Source: Ruminiclostridium papyrosolvens DSM 2782
Lineage (GTDB): Bacteria > Bacillota > Clostridia > Acetivibrionales > DSM-1351
NCBI RefSeq assembly: GCF_029318685.1
Contig: NZ_CP119677.1
Coordinates: forward strand, 1,364,001 to 1,428,000
DNA: 64,000 nt
Direction: 5' to 3'
The translations under genes and the position numbers were made by a program. The notes below the pieces were generated by a model. It had not been told where the DNA came from. It ran no database searches and was given only the letters and a program-made list of their open reading frames with translations. Positions 57,400 through 64,000 of the stretch are shown here, piece by piece (the first letter of the stretch is position 1; the number at the start of each line of letters is the position of its first letter).

Positions 57400-57449
57400 T
57401 TGACTTTTAAAAACTGATTTGATACTATAAATACAGTTAAACGTTTCGC
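57400..57449 (+). promoter_or_regulatory. lacI promoter with downstream operator-like palindrome
   Basis: TTGACT (57400-57405) and TACTAT (57423-57428) are 17 apart. TAAACGTTTCGC (57438-57449) lies a few bases after the likely start point. The same sequence, inverted, lies before the kinase gene. Confidence 0.6.
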
Positions 57450-57477
57450 GAATGAAGGTGATTATATCTCTGCTACA

Positions 57478-58473
57478 ATGAAGGATGTTGCCAGGAAATC
57501 CGGGCTATCAATAGCAACAATTTCAAAATATATAAATGGCGGCAATGTTCTGGAAGAAAATCGTGTTGTTATTGACAAAGCAATAAAAGAGTTGGGTTTT
57601 GAAGTTAATGAGATTGCAAGAGGGCTAAAAACTAATAAAACAATGACAATCGGACTATTAATTCCAAGCCTTGAGAATATATTTTTTACAAGTATAGTTT
57701 CAAATATAGAAAGTATTTTAATTAAAAATGGGTATAGTACCATAATTTGTGACTATAAGGAAGATAAAAGCCTTGAGAAACAAAAGCTTGATTTTTTAGT
57801 TAAAAAAATGGTGGATGGGATTATTACTATGCCGATGGGATGTGATTTAGAGGTTATCAATTCGGTTATTAACAGAAATATTCCGGTTGTACTTATTGAT
57901 AGGGCTCTCAAGGGCGTAGAGTGTGATACAGTATTGGTAGATAATCTGAATGCTTCTTATAATGCAGTGGAACAATTGATAATACTGGGTCATAAAAGAA
58001 TTGGGATTATCTGTGGACCGGAGGATATATACACGGCTCAGGAACGTCTGAAGGGTTATGAAAGAGTACATGAAGATTATGATATGACCATAGAGAGCGA
58101 ACTTATAAAAAAAGGTGATTATCAGGTAGAAAGCGGATATAGGCTTCTGTTGGAATTAATAGAAATGGAGGAACCTCCAACTGCTGTTCTGGTTACAAAC
58201 TATGAAATGACTCTCGGTGCCGTAATGGCTATAAACGAAAGTGATATAAAAGTACCGGACGATATATCCATTATAGGTTTTGATAATTTACAGCTGGCAA
58301 AAGTAGTAAAGCCTCCATTATCCATAGTAATTCAGCCTGTTAAGCAAATTGGTGAAGTAGCGGCAAACATGATATTAAGACGGCTAAAAGGTGACAATTC
58401 AAATTTTCCGTCAATGATTAGGCTTAAAACAGAGTTGATGTTAAAGGATTCTATAAAAAAGGTAGAAAATTAG
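57478..58473 (+). CDS. LacI-family transcription regulator
   Basis: The 331-residue protein has a LacI helix-turn-helix (MKDVARKSGLSIATISKYINGG, with a hinge helix EIARGLKTNKT) and a periplasmic-binding-type ligand domain (IGLLIPSLENIFFTSIVSNIES and IIGFDNLQLAKVVKPPLSI). It probably represses the operon downstream. The ATG at 57478 has no close ribosome binding site, and the upstream GAAGGTG is 18 bases away, so a few more N-terminal residues are possible. Confidence 0.9.
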   Translation: MKDVARKSGLSIATISKYINGGNVLEENRVVIDKAIKELGFEVNEIARGLKTNKTMTIGLLIPSLENIFFTSIVSNIESILIKNGYSTIICDYKEDKSLEKQKLDFLVKKMVDGIITMPMGCDLEVINSVINRNIPVVLIDRALKGVECDTVLVDNLNASYNAVEQLIILGHKRIGIICGPEDIYTAQERLKGYERVHEDYDMTIESELIKKGDYQVESGYRLLLELIEMEEPPTAVLVTNYEMTLGAVMAINESDIKVPDDISIIGFDNLQLAKVVKPPLSIVIQPVKQIGEVAANMILRRLKGDNSNFPSMIRLKTELMLKDSIKKVEN

Positions 58474-58544
58474 TTAAATAAATTGTTTTATTAAAAGTAT
58501 ACGAGAAGTGAATGTATTTTACTTCTCAAATATTTTAAAGTAAA

Positions 58545-58556
58545 GCGAAACGTTTA
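58545..58556. promoter_or_regulatory. LacI-type operator before the kinase operon
   Basis: GCGAAACGTTTA contains the palindrome AAACGTTT. It is the inverted copy of the 12-bp site at 57438-57449 and lies 46 bases before the kinase ATG. Confidence 0.6.
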
Positions 58557-58601
58557 GCTGAAAAAACATAGAAGTGCAAATAACGTAACGGGGTAAACAA
58601 T

Positions 58602-60113
58602 ATGGAAAAACTATTACTGGGAATTGATATAGGAACCTCTGCCTGTAAAGTAGCAGTATTTAACCTTCAAGGTAAAGTATTATCACAATCTTCAAAGGAG
58701 TATAGGGTATATTATCCTCATTCAGGGTTTGTAGAGCAAAACCCGAATGAATGGTGGGAAAGTGTATGCACTGCGATTAAAGAGACAATTGCTTCTTCCA
58801 AAATAAACCCGAGTCAAATAGCAGGAATAGGTATTGACGGGCAGAGCTGGTCTGCTATACCCATAGACAAGAAGGGTAATGTTCTTTGCAATACACCAAT
58901 ATGGATGGATACAAGAGCAGATGATATATGTAAAGAGACTATAAATAGAATTGGATTTGACAGAATTTTTATGTTAAGTGGTAATTCATTTGAACCTACA
59001 TATTCAACACCTAAAATACTTTGGTTTAAGAAAAACATGCCGGATGTTTACAACTCAACATATAAGTTTTTACAAAGCAACAGTTTTATAGCTTTCAAAC
59101 TGACAGGTCAAATATCTCAGGATTTATCACAGGGTTATGGTATACATTCTTTTAATATGAAAGAGGGCAAATGGGATGATAGCTTTTGTGAGGAGCTAGG
59201 ATTTGATAGGGATAAGCTTCCGGAGATTTTTCAATGTCATGATGTAATTGGTGAAGTAACGGGTGTGGCTGCTGCTCAAACCGGGTTAGTTAAGGGTACT
59301 CCTGTTGTTGCCGGTGGATTGGATGCATCTTGTGGAACTCTTGGTGCCGGAGTTATAAAAGTGGGTCAAACTCAGGAACAAGGAGGGCAAGCCGGAGGAA
59401 TGAGTATATGTCTGGATTCGGCAATTGCACATCAGAAGCTTATTTTAAGCTTCCACGTTATACCAGAACTTTGGCTTTTGCAGGGAGGAACTGTTGGCGG
59501 AGGCGGAGCGATAAAGTGGTTTAAACAGGAACTTGGGGCTTTTGAGGAAATAGAAGCCAAGGCAAAGGGGTCAAATCCCTTTAAAGTTATGGATGAAGAA
59601 GCTGAAAAAATACCTGTGGGATCAGATGGGTTGATATTTTTACCGTACATGGCTGGAGAAAGGTCTCCGTTATGGGACAAGAAAGCAAAGGGAGTTTTTT
59701 TCGGACTGGGTTATAACAAAACCAGAGCTCATATTATCAGAGCTATTATGGAAGGTTGTGCATTTGCATTACAGCACAATCTGAAAACAGCAGAGGAAAT
59801 TGGTGTTGGCACAGATAAGCTGGTCGCAATGGGGGGAGCTGCCAACAGCAGACTCTGGACGCAAATGAAGGCTGACATAACGGGTAAAACCATCAATGTT
59901 CCAACTTCAGATACAGCTACAACACTGGGAGCTGCAATTCTGGCTGGTGTCGGAACAGGATTGTATAAAAGCTTTGATCAGGCGGTAGAAAATACCATTG
60001 TAATTACACGTACACATGAACCTGATTTGCAGGCTCATGCCAGATATAAAAATAATTACGAGATTTACCTTGAACTATATGAAAAACTGAAGGACACAAT
60101 GCAGAAAGTTTAA
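58602..60113 (+). CDS. FGGY-family carbohydrate kinase (xylulokinase-like)
   Basis: The 503-residue protein has the FGGY/actin-type fold: LLLGIDIGTSACKVAVFNLQGK (phosphate 1), GIGIDGQSWSAI, VVAGGLDASCGTLGAG (phosphate 2), and VAMGGAANSRLWTQMKADITG (adenosine). The family phosphorylates ketoses or polyols such as xylulose. Here the neighbours suggest a hexulose such as tagatose or sorbose; this is inferred. It is the first gene after the LacI operator. Confidence 0.9.
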   Translation: MEKLLLGIDIGTSACKVAVFNLQGKVLSQSSKEYRVYYPHSGFVEQNPNEWWESVCTAIKETIASSKINPSQIAGIGIDGQSWSAIPIDKKGNVLCNTPIWMDTRADDICKETINRIGFDRIFMLSGNSFEPTYSTPKILWFKKNMPDVYNSTYKFLQSNSFIAFKLTGQISQDLSQGYGIHSFNMKEGKWDDSFCEELGFDRDKLPEIFQCHDVIGEVTGVAAAQTGLVKGTPVVAGGLDASCGTLGAGVIKVGQTQEQGGQAGGMSICLDSAIAHQKLILSFHVIPELWLLQGGTVGGGGAIKWFKQELGAFEEIEAKAKGSNPFKVMDEEAEKIPVGSDGLIFLPYMAGERSPLWDKKAKGVFFGLGYNKTRAHIIRAIMEGCAFALQHNLKTAEEIGVGTDKLVAMGGAANSRLWTQMKADITGKTINVPTSDTATTLGAAILAGVGTGLYKSFDQAVENTIVITRTHEPDLQAHARYKNNYEIYLELYEKLKDTMQKV

Positions 60114-60173
60114 GGTGCCAGTTGGAAATTCTTAAATAATTGACAGCGTGAGAACGCATAAAAGGAGGTAACG

Positions 60174-61220
60174 ATGAAAGCAGGAGTATTACATGCAAAA
60201 GATGATATTCGTTATGAGGAGATAGCTACCCCTGTGGCTTTAAAGGGAGAAGTTCTGGTAAAGGTGATGGCTACCGGTATATGTGGATCAGATCTTCCCA
60301 GAGTTCTTGGTGATGGAGCACATTTTTTCCCGATAGTGCTGGGTCATGAGTTTTCAGGAGAAGTAGCAGAAATAGGCGAAGGGGTGACTTCAGTAAAGGT
60401 CGGCGACAGAGTTGCCGGTGTACCCTTAGTTCCATGTCTGAAGTGTGATGACTGCCAGAAAGGTGATTATTCACTATGTAAGCACTATAGCTTTATTGGC
60501 TCAAGAGAGCAGGGAAGCTTTTCTGAATATGTGAAAATGCCTGAAAAAAATGTTGTAAAGTTTGATGATAGTGTACCTTTTGAGCAGGGAGCATTTTTTG
60601 AGCCTGCCACAGTAGCGCTTCACGGTTTACTTTGTGCTGATTATCGGGCAGGAGAAGATGTTGCCATCCTTGGTGGTGGAACGGTAGGCATGTTTACGGC
60701 ACAGTGGGCAAAAATATTTGGTGCAAAAAGAGTATTTGTGTTTGATATTGATAATGACAGATTAGCACTTGCAAAAAGATTGGGTGCTGATGAGACTATT
60801 AATACTCTTGATAAGGATTTTAGACAGCAAATAGACAGGCTTACTAATAATAAGGGGTTTGGCTTTGTCTATGAAACCGCAGGTGTTGACGTAACGATGA
60901 AGCTGGCTTTTGAAATAGCAGGAAATAAGGCTTCTGTATGTTTTATTGGTACACCGACTAAGGATTTGGTATTTACTCCAAAACTATTTGAAAATATGAA
61001 TAGAAAAGAGTTTAAGCTTACCGGCTCATGGATGTCATACAGTGCACCATTTCCGGGTAAAGAGTGGGCTCTTACGGCGCATTACTTTTCAACCGGAGCA
61101 CTGCAGTTTGATTCCAGTTTTATATTCAAAAAAGTTCCTCTTAGTAATATTAAGGACGCTTTTGATATGTTCAAGGTTCCCGGAACTGTTAAGGGAAAAG
61201 TGCTTATAGTTAATGACTAA
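60174..61220 (+). CDS. zinc-dependent polyol/sugar dehydrogenase (galactitol-phosphate-dehydrogenase-like)
   Basis: The 348-residue medium-chain dehydrogenase has the catalytic-zinc motif ATGICGSDLPRV and GHEFSGEVAEIGEGV, the structural-zinc cysteines in CLKCDDCQKGDYSLC, and the NAD motif ILGGGTVGMFTAQW. It belongs to the sorbitol/galactitol-type branch. It would oxidise a polyol to a ketose, NAD-linked. AAAGGAGG precedes the ATG. It is in the same direction as the kinase and GatZ-like genes. Confidence 0.88.
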   Translation: MKAGVLHAKDDIRYEEIATPVALKGEVLVKVMATGICGSDLPRVLGDGAHFFPIVLGHEFSGEVAEIGEGVTSVKVGDRVAGVPLVPCLKCDDCQKGDYSLCKHYSFIGSREQGSFSEYVKMPEKNVVKFDDSVPFEQGAFFEPATVALHGLLCADYRAGEDVAILGGGTVGMFTAQWAKIFGAKRVFVFDIDNDRLALAKRLGADETINTLDKDFRQQIDRLTNNKGFGFVYETAGVDVTMKLAFEIAGNKASVCFIGTPTKDLVFTPKLFENMNRKEFKLTGSWMSYSAPFPGKEWALTAHYFSTGALQFDSSFIFKKVPLSNIKDAFDMFKVPGTVKGKVLIVND

Positions 61221-61261
61221 GTAAAATAAACAGATTTTCTGAATTTAGGGGGGTAGTAACA

Positions 61262-62587
61262 ATGACAGATTTGCATCCATTGAAGGAATTAGTTGCAAAG
61301 CAGAAACAGGGAGTACCTGTTGGAGTATATTCTGCCTGCAGCGCAAATGAATACGTTATTGAGGCAGCTATGGAGAGAGCTTTAAAATCAGGTAGCTATG
61401 TATTAATCGAAGCAACCGCAAATCAGGTTAATCAGTTTGGGGGCTACACCGGTATGAAACCGGCAGATTTTAAAGAATTTGTATATGATATTGCCAGGAA
61501 AGTTCAATTTCCTGTAGATAAAATAATACTTGGCGGGGATCATCTGGGACCACTTACATGGAAAAATGAAAAATCTGATACAGCAATGGAAAAATCCTGT
61601 GAATTATTAAAACAGTATGTCTCGGCAGGCTTTACAAAAATACATATTGATACAAGTATGCACCTTGCAGATGATAATATCAACGAGAAGCTGGATACAG
61701 GTGTTATTGCTGAAAGAGGAGCTTTACTGTGCAAAGTTGCCGAAGAGGCATATGCGGAACTTGTTGAAAGAGATAAAAATACCGTGCAGCCTGTATATGT
61801 TGTGGGAAGTGAAGTACCTATTCCCGGAGGAAGTCAGGAAGAGGACGAAGGCATCCTTGTTACAAAGGTTAGCGATTTTGAAACAACCGTAGCAACCTTT
61901 AAACAGGCATTTTATAAGCTGGGGCTTCAGAAGGCTTGGGACAATGTTATTGCTGTTGTAGTTCAGCCGGGTGTTGAATTTGGTGATGAGACTATTCATG
62001 AATATAACCGTGAAGCAGCTAAGGAATTATGCCAGGCACTTAAGAAATATCCTAACCTTGTTTTTGAGGGCCATTCCACCGATTATCAGACTCGAACAGG
62101 ACTCAGAGAAATGGTTGAGGACGGAATAGCTATTTTAAAGGTAGGCCCTGCATTAACTTTTGCATTGAGAGAGGGACTGTTTGCTCTTAGCTTGATTGAA
62201 GAAGAAATGTTCAGATACAATCCTGATATTCATCTATCAAACCTTGTTAATGCATTTGATGAGGCTATGCTTCAAAATCCCGATAATTGGAGGAAGCATT
62301 ACCATGGCAATGGAGAGAAGCTCAGGTTTGCCAGAAAATACAGTTTCTCTGACAGATGCAGATACTATCTGCCCGATCCTAATGTACAGAAATCAATTGA
62401 GAGGATGTTACAAAACCTTAATACGGCAACAATACCACTATCCTTATTAAGTGAATACTTGCCTATTCAATACAGTAAAGTCAGAAATGGCAAACTATCC
62501 AACGATCCTATAAGTCTATTAAAAGACAGAGTTGTAAACTGTATTGATGACTATTTATATGCTACAGAAGCAAAATGTTTTGTTTAA
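61262..62587 (+). CDS. GatZ/KbaZ-like tagatose-1,6-bisphosphate aldolase subunit family protein
   Basis: The 441-residue barrel protein has LIEATANQVNQFGGYTGM, LGGDHLGPLTW, GFTKIHIDTSMHLADD, VYVVGSEVPIPGGSQ and VGPALTFALREGLFALS, all hallmarks of GatZ/KbaZ. In enteric bacteria this subunit assists the aldolase GatY; some relatives alone epimerise fructose-6-phosphate and tagatose-6-phosphate. No GatY gene is in the visible operon. GGGGGG precedes the ATG. Confidence 0.87.
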   Translation: MTDLHPLKELVAKQKQGVPVGVYSACSANEYVIEAAMERALKSGSYVLIEATANQVNQFGGYTGMKPADFKEFVYDIARKVQFPVDKIILGGDHLGPLTWKNEKSDTAMEKSCELLKQYVSAGFTKIHIDTSMHLADDNINEKLDTGVIAERGALLCKVAEEAYAELVERDKNTVQPVYVVGSEVPIPGGSQEEDEGILVTKVSDFETTVATFKQAFYKLGLQKAWDNVIAVVVQPGVEFGDETIHEYNREAAKELCQALKKYPNLVFEGHSTDYQTRTGLREMVEDGIAILKVGPALTFALREGLFALSLIEEEMFRYNPDIHLSNLVNAFDEAMLQNPDNWRKHYHGNGEKLRFARKYSFSDRCRYYLPDPNVQKSIERMLQNLNTATIPLSLLSEYLPIQYSKVRNGKLSNDPISLLKDRVVNCIDDYLYATEAKCFV

Positions 62588-62666
62588 AAACAGTTTTTAT
62601 ACCCGAAATATGAGAATTGCCGAATTATTAAGATAAATAATATAAAATAAAAAGGAGATGTATTTT

Positions 62667-63680
62667 ATGAGTAATGATATTATAAATCCAAGTTTAGTGC
62701 CTCAGAGAGTATTACGTGGAGGAGACAAGATGCCCGGTATTGGTATGGGCACTTTTGGTTCAGACAGATTCTCTGCCGAAGACATTGCAGCTGCCGTAAA
62801 AGGTGCCGCTGAGGTGGGTTTCAGATTGTTTGACTGTGCATCAGTTTATGGAAATGAACATTTAATCGGAGATGTTTTTCAAGATATTATGAAGTCAGGT
62901 ATAAGCAGGGAAGAACTTTTTATTACTTCTAAGGTTTGGAATGATATGCATGGAAAAGGGGATGTTTTACTATCCTGTGCAAAAACCTTAAAGGATTTAA
63001 AACTTGACTACATAGACTTATATTTTGTACACTGGCCTTTCAGAAACTTCCATCCAAAGGGAGCTGCCCCTGATTACCATAATAAGGATGCAAGACCATT
63101 CTCAATTGAACAGTATATGGAAACATGGTACCAGATGGAAAGGTTACAGAAAGCAGGTTATGTTAAACATATAGGAGCATCAAATATGACTGTACCTAAA
63201 TTAAAGGAATTGATTAAGTACTGTACAATCATGCCTTCAGCTATTGAAATGGAGCTTCATCCATGCTTCCAACAGCCTGAGCAATTCAAATTTGTTCTCG
63301 AACATGGCATACAGCCGATTGGATTTTGCCCTATAGGTTCTCCAACCAGACCGGATCGTGATAAAACTTCTGAGGATTATGTTGATATTCAGGAACCTGT
63401 AATTGTTGAGATAGCTAAAGCGCACAATGTTCATCCTGCTGTTATTTGTATCAAATGGGCTGTACAGAGAGGCCAGACTCCAATCCCATTCTCAATTTTT
63501 AGAAACGAATATGCAAGTAATCTTCGTTGTGCAGTTGAAGATCCATTAACTGAAGAAGAAATGAAAAAAATTGAAAGTGTTGATAAAAACTGTAGATTAA
63601 TAAAAGGACAAGTATTCCTCTGGGATGGAGCAAAGGATTGGACGGATTTATGGGATTTGAACGGAGAAATAACAAAATAA
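62667..63680 (+). CDS. aldo/keto reductase
   Basis: The 337-residue protein starts PGIGMGTFG and has the AKR tetrad in FDCASVYGNE (Asp, Tyr), TSKVWND (Lys) and LYFVHWPF (His). It likely reduces an aldose or aldehyde with NAD(P)H. The frame opens at 62658, but AAGGAGATG before the ATG at 62667 fixes the start. It is the fourth gene of the operon. Confidence 0.9.
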   Translation: MSNDIINPSLVPQRVLRGGDKMPGIGMGTFGSDRFSAEDIAAAVKGAAEVGFRLFDCASVYGNEHLIGDVFQDIMKSGISREELFITSKVWNDMHGKGDVLLSCAKTLKDLKLDYIDLYFVHWPFRNFHPKGAAPDYHNKDARPFSIEQYMETWYQMERLQKAGYVKHIGASNMTVPKLKELIKYCTIMPSAIEMELHPCFQQPEQFKFVLEHGIQPIGFCPIGSPTRPDRDKTSEDYVDIQEPVIVEIAKAHNVHPAVICIKWAVQRGQTPIPFSIFRNEYASNLRCAVEDPLTEEEMKKIESVDKNCRLIKGQVFLWDGAKDWTDLWDLNGEITK

Positions 63681-63711
63681 CTACGACGTTAAATACGGAT
63701 TTGGAGGTTTT

Positions 63712-64000
63712 ATGTTAAAAGGAATTCCTTCTATTTTAACCCCTGAACTACTCAAGACACTTATGGAGATGGGGCATAGTGATGAAATAGTAATAGCAGA
63801 TGGAAATTTCCCGTCAGGTACCTTTGGGAAAAAGGTGATTAGGCTGGATGGACATGGAGTACCAGAGGTGTTGGATGCAATACTAAAGTTCTTCCCCCTT
63901 GATCCTTATGTTGAAAAGCCTGTGGCATTAATGGAAGTAGTACCCGGAGATGCTGTAGAAACACCAATATGGGAAGTTTATAAAGAAATAATTAACAAAC
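63712..64000 (+). CDS. RbsD/FucU-family sugar mutarotase, cut by window end
   Basis: The frame opens at an ATG with GGAGG before it and runs off the window: MLKGIPSILTPELLKTLMEM, GHSDEIVIADGNFP, and LEVVPGDAVETPIW-like segments. It matches the RbsD/FucU fold, which interconverts sugar anomers or pyranose forms. About 96 residues are visible, so it is nearly complete. It is the fifth gene of the LacI operon. Confidence 0.85.
   Translation, partial: MLKGIPSILTPELLKTLMEMGHSDEIVIADGNFPSGTFGKKVIRLDGHGVPEVLDAILKFFPLDPYVEKPVALMEVVPGDAVETPIWEVYKEIINK

Follow-up and report, generated by a model that had tools for sequence, protein, structure and literature searches.

A six-gene cassette at the end of the window

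The window, the whole 64,000-nucleotide stretch of the Ruminiclostridium papyrosolvens DSM 2782 genome that we analysed, carries from position 57478 onwards six genes that all lie on the (+) strand, in the order lacI, FGGY kinase, zinc MDR (GatD-like), GatZ/KbaZ-like protein, aldo-keto reductase (AKR) and RbsD/FucU-type mutarotase (Table 1). This is the order read by the first-pass annotation, which had also remarked on the lack of the usual PTS genes and GatY; we found neither a PTS gene, galactitol GatABC included, nor gatY among the operon and downstream genes, and R. cellulolyticum has no active PTS according to PMC12542651. Gaps of 31–128 bp separate the six genes, which appear to form one operon. 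The mutarotase gene is truncated by the window end and complete in the genome, where an MFS transporter gene follows directly, in the region beyond 64000 that had been singled out for a transporter search. Further along the genome sequence lie a two-component pair, an ABC transporter, GH36-like and GH31 genes and galT-galK-galE. We treat this stretch, from the two-component pair to the Leloir genes, as a putative unit separate from the cassette, because it lacks an operator site and does not adjoin the cassette in R. cellulolyticum or R. cellobioparum.

Table 1. Genes and predicted operator sites of the cassette (window positions)
Feature	Position	Strand	Basis or location
Predicted LacI-type palindromic operator GTTAAACGTTTCGC	57436..57449	+	28 bp ahead of lacI start
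LacI-family repressor, 331 aa	57478..58473	+	Pfam LacI and Peripla_BP_3
Predicted LacI-type operator GCGAAACGTTTAGC	58545..58558	+	upstream of FGGY kinase
FGGY sugar kinase, 503 aa, nearest XylB model	58602..60113	+	TIGR01312, 367 bits (cut-off 380)
Zinc MDR, GatD-like, 348 aa	60174..61220	+	PRK10309, 325 bits
GatZ/KbaZ-like protein, 441 aa	61262..62587	+	PF08013, 617 bits
Aldo-keto reductase (AKR), 340 aa	62658..63680	+	PF00248
FucU-type mutarotase, 144 aa	63712..64000, on to window-equivalent 64146	+	model scores, PDB match

The operator sequence GYKAAACGTTTMRC has just two exact matches in the 5.03-Mb genome, the sites before lacI and the FGGY kinase gene, and this exact-match scan found none ahead of the GH36 or Leloir genes. 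The same motif occurs at lacI in other cassettes, whether these carry GatZ or the PfkB/aldolase variant described below. In genome G003 a second operator site precedes a GH43/GH141 operon with a dockerin, and the background rate of about 0.3 per genome allows chance as an explanation for it.

The protein sequences suggest a function for each enzyme. The MDR is closer to E. coli GatD (40% identity, 262 bits) than to LgoD (29%, 114 bits), has the Rossmann motif GGGTVG...VFDID with its Asp, and is proposed to oxidize galactitol to D-tagatose with NAD+. The GatZ-like protein, the sole copy in the whole genome, is 47% identical to E. coli GatZ and retains all the polar columns that are invariant across the sampled GatZ family, the E. 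coli protein included; we propose that it acts as a D-tagatose-6-phosphate 4-epimerase yielding fructose-6-phosphate. The AKR has the catalytic tetrad (Asp/Tyr/Lys/His motifs) and the coenzyme motif IPFS, and would reduce L-galactose to galactitol, probably with NADH. For the FGGY kinase we infer a substrate that would make it a D-tagatose 6-kinase or a galactitol kinase. The mutarotase is FucU-like rather than RbsD-like, scoring 137 bits against the L-fucose mutarotase model (cut-off 141) versus 45 bits against the RbsD model, with 3mvk (FucU) as its best PDB match. The cassette thus holds the genes expected of a PF08013 4-epimerase route, namely PF08013 without GatY plus a dehydrogenase and a putative ketose kinase. 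It also shows the clustering expected of an oxidoreductive aldose pathway: reductase, polyol dehydrogenase and kinase are co-conserved and, judging by synteny and the common operator motif, are predicted to share a single regulator.

Missing partners and a module swap

The R. papyrosolvens genome contains no GatY/KbaY. Its sole PF01116 aldolase is a 311-aa protein of the glycolytic Fba type encoded beside a phosphofructokinase gene, and a classic GatZ-GatY tagatose-bisphosphate aldolase was therefore ruled out. L-fucose isomerase (FucI, PF07881) likewise has no match in this genome (G000), nor in G002, G003 and G006, and the standard L-fucose isomerase pathway was rejected for the source genome on this ground. 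A GatY partner and adjacent genes for a standard fucose or other pathway were the findings named in advance as speaking against the scheme of the first-pass annotation, in which an aldose passes through polyol, ketose and ketose phosphate to fructose-6-phosphate; that scheme gains support from the single GatZ, the missing GatY and the arrangement of sister cassettes.

Six Ruminiclostridium genomes keep the block in synteny, one of them with the block truncated at a contig end, and in other families AKR, MDR, FGGY and FucU genes are again found together, so the linkage is more than chance. R. cellulolyticum is among the carriers (locus L024). LacI orthologues share 63–98% identity in GatZ-type cassettes and 45–68% in most others. 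In other Clostridia and on a fusobacterial plasmid, GatZ is replaced by a PfkB of the LacC/1-PFK type (tagatose-6-phosphate-kinase type) plus a GatY-type aldolase; the plasmid, pZRK30-3, has FGGY, AKR, GatD, TBP aldolase, 1PFK and FucU genes in one run. That a kinase and a GatY-type aldolase stand in GatZ's place points to D-tagatose-6-phosphate as the likely intermediate. Two observations weigh against the L-galactose reading given below: the AKR tree places the GatZ-type cassettes in a single group, so that the swap may have been a single event, and some AKR relatives are located outside any cassette.

These gene functions can be assembled into a route. The FucU-type mutarotase would equilibrate the sugar anomers, and the AKR would reduce open-chain L-galactose to galactitol, a meso compound in which the handedness of the sugar is lost. 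The GatD-like dehydrogenase would then oxidize galactitol at the position that yields D-tagatose, and the FGGY kinase would form D-tagatose-6-phosphate; these two steps may be swapped, with a galactitol kinase acting first and a GatD-type oxidation of galactitol-1-phosphate following. GatZ without GatY would epimerize C4 to give fructose-6-phosphate, which enters glycolysis, and in the relatives PfkB kinase and GatY-type aldolase would instead deliver DHAP and GAP. The reduction and the oxidation probably make up a closed NADH/NAD+ loop.

L-galactose as the probable substrate, and its rivals

We give a probability of roughly 0.7 to the reading that the cassette is a self-contained operon under LacI control that catabolizes L-galactose via galactitol. 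This consumer of plant fibre would obtain the sugar from the alpha-L-galactosyl caps that plant walls carry, those of grass glucuronoarabinoxylan for example, once GH95 or GH29 had released it. In relatives, GH29 genes adjoin the AKR gene, and their products are closest to BpGH29, a proven exo-alpha-L-galactosidase (PMC12316285), with 464 vs 257 bits and 303 vs 185 bits for BpGH29 versus the best fucosidase. Across 391 genomes, AKR and BpGH29-type GH29 occur together in 14 versus 3.0 expected (Fisher p 6e-8), within 5 kb of each other in 8 of the 14. For fucose isomerase, BpGH29-type GH29 shows no association (10 genomes observed, 10.8 expected). Against the reading, the AKR is present in just 14 of the 34 genomes with a BpGH29-like GH29, and where it is missing the GH29 neighbourhoods show no common alternative pathway. 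Linkage to GH29 of the alpha-L-galactosidase type is thus seen in relatives; it also counts against the reading that the source genome has no GH29 and that neither of its two GH95 genes is near the operon. In both R. cellulolyticum and R. cellobioparum a GH95 gene is found some 17 kb away from the cassette, and R. cellulolyticum H10 has a cytoplasmic GH95 (L129, 7973-10249). The Thr/His rule for GH95 (PMC4491172) was tried as a discriminator and dropped: of the GH95 proteins in which this motif could be located, almost all have Thr, and so has 7kmq, the PDB chain nearest to them; a signature this common decides nothing.

Galactose via galactitol had been the earlier candidate. With D-galactose or galactitol itself as substrate, the cassette would be the bacterial equivalent of oxidoreductive galactose use in fungi, and might serve as a side route when galactose is in excess. 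D-galactose would give identical intermediates; downstream of the cassette there are GH36-like, GH31 and Leloir genes, a GH36 orthologue is near the cassette in G326, and a LacZ-type GH2 is near it in R. cellulolyticum. However, the nearby Leloir genes also count against D-galactose, a galactokinase mutant of the cassette-bearing R. cellulolyticum fails to grow on galactose, for which galactokinase is thus genetically required (PMC8576529), and no operator site precedes the GH36 and Leloir genes. A pathway for galactitol only would need neither AKR nor mutarotase. L-galactose fits better than D-galactose because the mutarotase is of the L-fucose type and the AKR-linked GH29 of relatives are closest to BpGH29, and because meso-galactitol converts an L-sugar into D-tagatose. 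On the mutant phenotype, the FucU type and the GH29 type we rejected D-galactose as main substrate and regard this whole alternative as unlikely.

The FucU-type mutarotase and the GH29/GH95 neighbours would also suit L-fucose, or D-arabinose with the same C2–C4 configuration, metabolized via fucitol or arabinitol, and the AKR does co-occur with fucose isomerase (21 genomes vs 11.1 expected among the 391). Yet FucI is missing from 14 AKR genomes and present in 21, which is not how a FucI substitute would behave, and the linked GH29 resemble an L-galactosidase. L-galactose again fits better, because L-fucose isomerase is absent from the source genome and 6-deoxy sugars, like pentoses, cannot form the hexulose 1,6-bisphosphate implied by PfkB and TBP aldolase. 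Conversion of D-arabinose to xylulose-5-phosphate was rejected, as GatZ or PfkB plus aldolase would be superfluous for it. In R. cellulolyticum, growth on xylose is lost when xylulokinase (Ccel_3431) is mutated (PMC12542651), so the cassette kinase is no stand-in for xylulokinase. We consider these two sugars improbable substrates.

Little probability attaches, too, to a broad aldose-scavenging cassette or to some other rare sugar, aldose or ketose, from which D-tagatose can be reached (D-talose, D-altrose, L-tagatose). Promiscuity is common among AKRs of this class, and a PF00107 enzyme of Agrobacterium is said to convert D-altritol to D-tagatose, but the linked L-galactosidase-type hydrolases of the fucosidase superfamily and L-fucose-type mutarotase favour a single L-galacto sugar. 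An oxidative L-galactonate route was also rejected: the MDR resembles GatD rather than LgoD, and such a route would leave the kinase, PfkB and aldolase without a use.

Beyond R. papyrosolvens, we judge it probable, with somewhat more reserve, that several clostridial families and a fusobacterial plasmid have a handedness-erasing L-galactose pathway, in several of them beside alpha-L-galactosidase-type hydrolases, running through meso-galactitol and D-tagatose into glycolysis by a lone GatZ 4-epimerase or a LacC-type kinase and GatY-type aldolase.

Implications and relation to known systems

In corn and other cereals, side chains of glucuronoarabinoxylan are capped with L-galactose, whose release was of no help to Thermoanaerobacterium, an organism unable to use the L-isomer (PMC7176698). 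If our reading is true, fermentative anaerobes would be well served by a reductive route that crosses a meso polyol and is redox-neutral, the orphan FucU and GatZ genes of clostridia would be explained, cassette-linked GH29 and GH95 proteins now named fucosidases would become testable alpha-L-galactosidases, and an enzyme set would be at hand for turning an L-sugar into D-tagatose. R. cellulolyticum H10, which carries the cassette and allows gene knock-out by ClosTron (PMC8576529), offers a direct test of the idea.

The literature we searched held no reductive L-galactose route; the L-galactose routes found there are oxidative, via L-galactonate. Such catabolism in Phocaeicola vulgatus (BVU_0219/0222) and Luteolibacter LG18 (lgu cluster) (PMC12632266) shares with the cassette the substrate proposed here and, early on, a step that depends on NAD(P), but converts L-galactose to L-galactonate, D-tagaturonate and then KDG, whereas the cassette is proposed to begin with a reduction and to pass through a tagatose phosphate. 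The E. coli gat system (GatABC PTS, GatD, GatZ, GatY) has homologous GatD and GatZ and a tagatose-6-phosphate intermediate; unlike it, the cassette has no PTS and no GatY, has an FGGY kinase in place of PTS phosphorylation, and would begin at the aldose with AKR and mutarotase. A galactitol/D-altritol pathway with a PF08013 tagatose-6-phosphate 4-epimerase was reportedly described in Agrobacterium tumefaciens by Wichelecki et al. in 2015. It is said to run, like the proposed route, from galactitol through D-tagatose and tagatose-6-phosphate to fructose-6-phosphate by dehydrogenase, kinase and PF08013 epimerase, with polyol uptake and a PfkB tagatose kinase where the cassette has an FGGY kinase, with AKR and FucU in front. 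The fungal oxidoreductive D-galactose and L-arabinose pathways follow a reductase-dehydrogenase logic, and the L-arabinose route turns an L-sugar into D-series compounds through the meso polyol xylitol. The cassette would share this logic and the use of a meso polyol, and differs in its sugar, in its organization as a bacterial operon and in its tagatose-6-phosphate/fructose-6-phosphate end, by GatZ or by PfkB and GatY.

The operon and its neighbourhood

The end of the window falls within an operon, whose FucU-type mutarotase gene extends 146 bases further into the single contig of 5,027,861 bases. The first-pass annotation had proposed an oxidoreductive hexose route here, with galactose via galactitol and tagatose as one candidate, and had pointed downstream for a transporter; an MFS gene is indeed present there. 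We favour a route from L-galactose through galactitol, D-tagatose and tagatose-6-phosphate to fructose-6-phosphate.

Features of the operon (cassette) and related loci; window-equivalent coordinates are counted on past the window end (64000) in the same genome
Feature	Position	Strand
lacI, FGGY kinase, zinc MDR, GatZ/KbaZ-like, AKR, FucU-type mutarotase (in this order)		+
MFS gene, after FucU	window-equivalent 64187-65572	
Two-component pair, ABC sugar transporter, GH36-like gene, GH31, galT-galK-galE (in this order, after MFS)	window-equivalent 65666-81588 (L002 9666-18654 + L003 980-7588)	
galT-galK-galE	window-equivalent ~77.8-81.6 kb	
50% orthologue of the GH36-like protein, G326	L214 9719-11821	
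Second operator-motif copy, G003	L212 7603	
DsbD/CcdA-like proteins	L129 4174-5730; L130 13914-15470; L062 9692-10612; L068 7377-8855	

Judged by its GatZ, the genome has its closest named relatives in Ruminiclostridium papyrosolvens C7, at 94% identity, and R. cellobioparum, at 84%. Six genomes of the genus share the lacI-FGGY-MDR-GatZ-AKR-FucU block in synteny, the copy in G008 being cut by a contig end. The MFS gene is retained in four of these and is not beside the cassette in G003 or G002 (4,068,724 bases; taken to be R. cellulolyticum H10). Flanks differ between genomes; those in G002 and G001 carry GH31, GH43, AraC, GH2 and ABC transporter genes, and a GH95 of cytoplasmic type lies approximately 17 kb from the cassette. 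The GH36-like protein that follows the cassette in the window's genome has its orthologue near the cassette in G326, and that genome, which includes locus L061, also holds a second cassette copy, lacI-FGGY-MDR-GatZ-FucU (C83, L213).

A LacI-type palindrome, GYKAAACGTTTMRC, precedes both lacI and the FGGY kinase gene, and these are its only exact matches in the 5.03 Mb genome (0.36 expected from base composition). Many cassettes of other families also have the motif, upstream of lacI and of the first structural gene, whichever of the two downstream modules described below they carry. Because it was not found before the ABC, GH36, GH31 or Leloir genes of the window's genome, we treated these as a separate unit. 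The second motif copy in G003 lies upstream of a GH43-CBM6-dockerin / GH141-like-CBM6-dockerin operon; it is either a possible link between the regulator and xylan degradation or a chance occurrence.

Cofactors and the GatZ module

The AKR retains the Asp-Tyr-Lys-His tetrad. Where its relatives bind the NADPH 2'-phosphate with Lys and Arg, it has Phe and Glu or another residue (IPFS motif), and the MDR carries the Asp typical of NAD+-binding Rossmann folds. Together these residues suggest that the two enzymes may run a closed NADH loop. The FGGY kinase would phosphorylate D-tagatose, or galactitol before oxidation, giving tagatose-6-phosphate either way.

Relatives of the AKR were present in 35 of 391 genomes of the class. 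Among 31 loci read outside the genus, we found the FGGY kinase in 14, the GatD-like MDR in 16 and FucU in 12. GatZ occurred in three; ten instead had a class II aldolase of GatY type, accompanied at eight loci by a PfkB kinase scoring on 1-phosphofructokinase and LacC models, and none of the 31 combined the two modules. A stand-alone GatZ replacing kinase and aldolase would be the expected behaviour of a tagatose-6-phosphate 4-epimerase, an activity reportedly found in an Agrobacterium PF08013 protein. Since one change in the AKR tree can explain the GatZ type, the swap may be one replacement rather than many independent ones. The earlier claim that GatZ lacks a GatY partner holds genome-wide: GatZ is the sole copy, GatY was not found, and the single PF01116 protein (311 aa) reads as the glycolytic Fba type and is encoded beside a phosphofructokinase gene.

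On the cold-seep fusobacterium plasmid pZRK30-3 (CP102408.1; L183/L184), FGGY, AKR and FucU lie in one run with genes annotated 'galactitol-1-phosphate 5-dehydrogenase', 'tagatose bisphosphate family class II aldolase' and '1-phosphofructokinase family hexose kinase'. This cassette adjoins sulfatases, a sulfatase maturase and a CBM_4_9 protein; the plasmid is possibly one for sulfated L-galactan utilisation. Other GatZ proteins, 55-60% identical, stand alongside SIS-domain sugar isomerases and PfkB kinases (L028, L029), probably in amino-sugar (GalNAc-type) pathways.

The probable sugar and candidate glycosidases

D-galactose is an unlikely substrate, as the window's genome has Leloir genes and an R. 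cellulolyticum galactokinase mutant loses growth on galactose (PMC8576529) even though R. cellulolyticum (G002) carries the six-gene cassette. L-fucose is also unlikely. A standard fucose pathway had been named as evidence against the proposal, yet we found no L-fucose isomerase in the window's genome, G002, G003 or G006, and a 6-deoxy sugar cannot yield a 1,6-bisphosphate. L-galactose satisfies all these constraints. The best PDB match of the mutarotase is a FucU, which L-galactose fits because it shares its ring stereochemistry with L-fucose. Reduction of L-galactose gives galactitol, a meso compound from which D-tagatose can follow directly.

In several families GH29 genes adjoin the AKR. 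Those of G275 and G306 score 464 and 303 bits against BpGH29 (7LJJ, 7SNK), compared with 257 and 185 for the best fucosidase; most of the remaining GH29s in these genomes give much lower BpGH29 scores. BpGH29, from Bacteroides plebeius, is an exo-alpha-L-galactosidase (activity described in PMC12316285). With relatedness ignored, a BpGH29-type GH29 and the AKR occur together in 14 of the 391 genomes, where 3.0 would be expected (p 6e-8); in eight of these the two genes lie within 5 kb of each other. The association stands whether or not a genome has fucose isomerase. BpGH29-type GH29 has no association with fucose isomerase in this set (10 against 10.8 expected). The AKR does (21 against 11.1, relatedness again ignored), as expected if both sugars derive from similar glycans. 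The GH29s linked to the AKR in relatives would lend independent support to L-galactose. At L080, L081 and L082 the AKR is paired with FucU, together with a BpGH29-type GH29 and an MDR of another kind (~25% identical), but FGGY, GatZ and aldolase were not found nearby.

Ruminiclostridium mostly lacks GH29, and its GH95 enzymes are candidate sources of L-galactose; the family includes proven alpha-L-galactosidases active on corn xylan (PMC4491172, PMC7176698). G002 has two full-length GH95 genes, of which one has a secreted, longer form and the other does not; they match the pair reported for H10 (PMC4780118). The published Thr/His residue rule fails to separate the GH95s of these genomes. Membrane proteins resembling DsbD/CcdA, some of them containing thioredoxin-like parts, are repeatedly encoded beside these GH95/GH29 loci.

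Relation to known routes

The text of a recent R. cellulolyticum metabolic model contains neither tagatose nor galactitol, and we found no L-galactose route through galactitol in the open-access literature, though one may have been reported elsewhere. The published L-galactose routes that we found oxidise the sugar (PMC12632266), whereas the cassette is proposed to go through galactitol. Its enzyme families are all known; what is new, as far as we could see, is their combination, along with the proposed substrate and the linkage.
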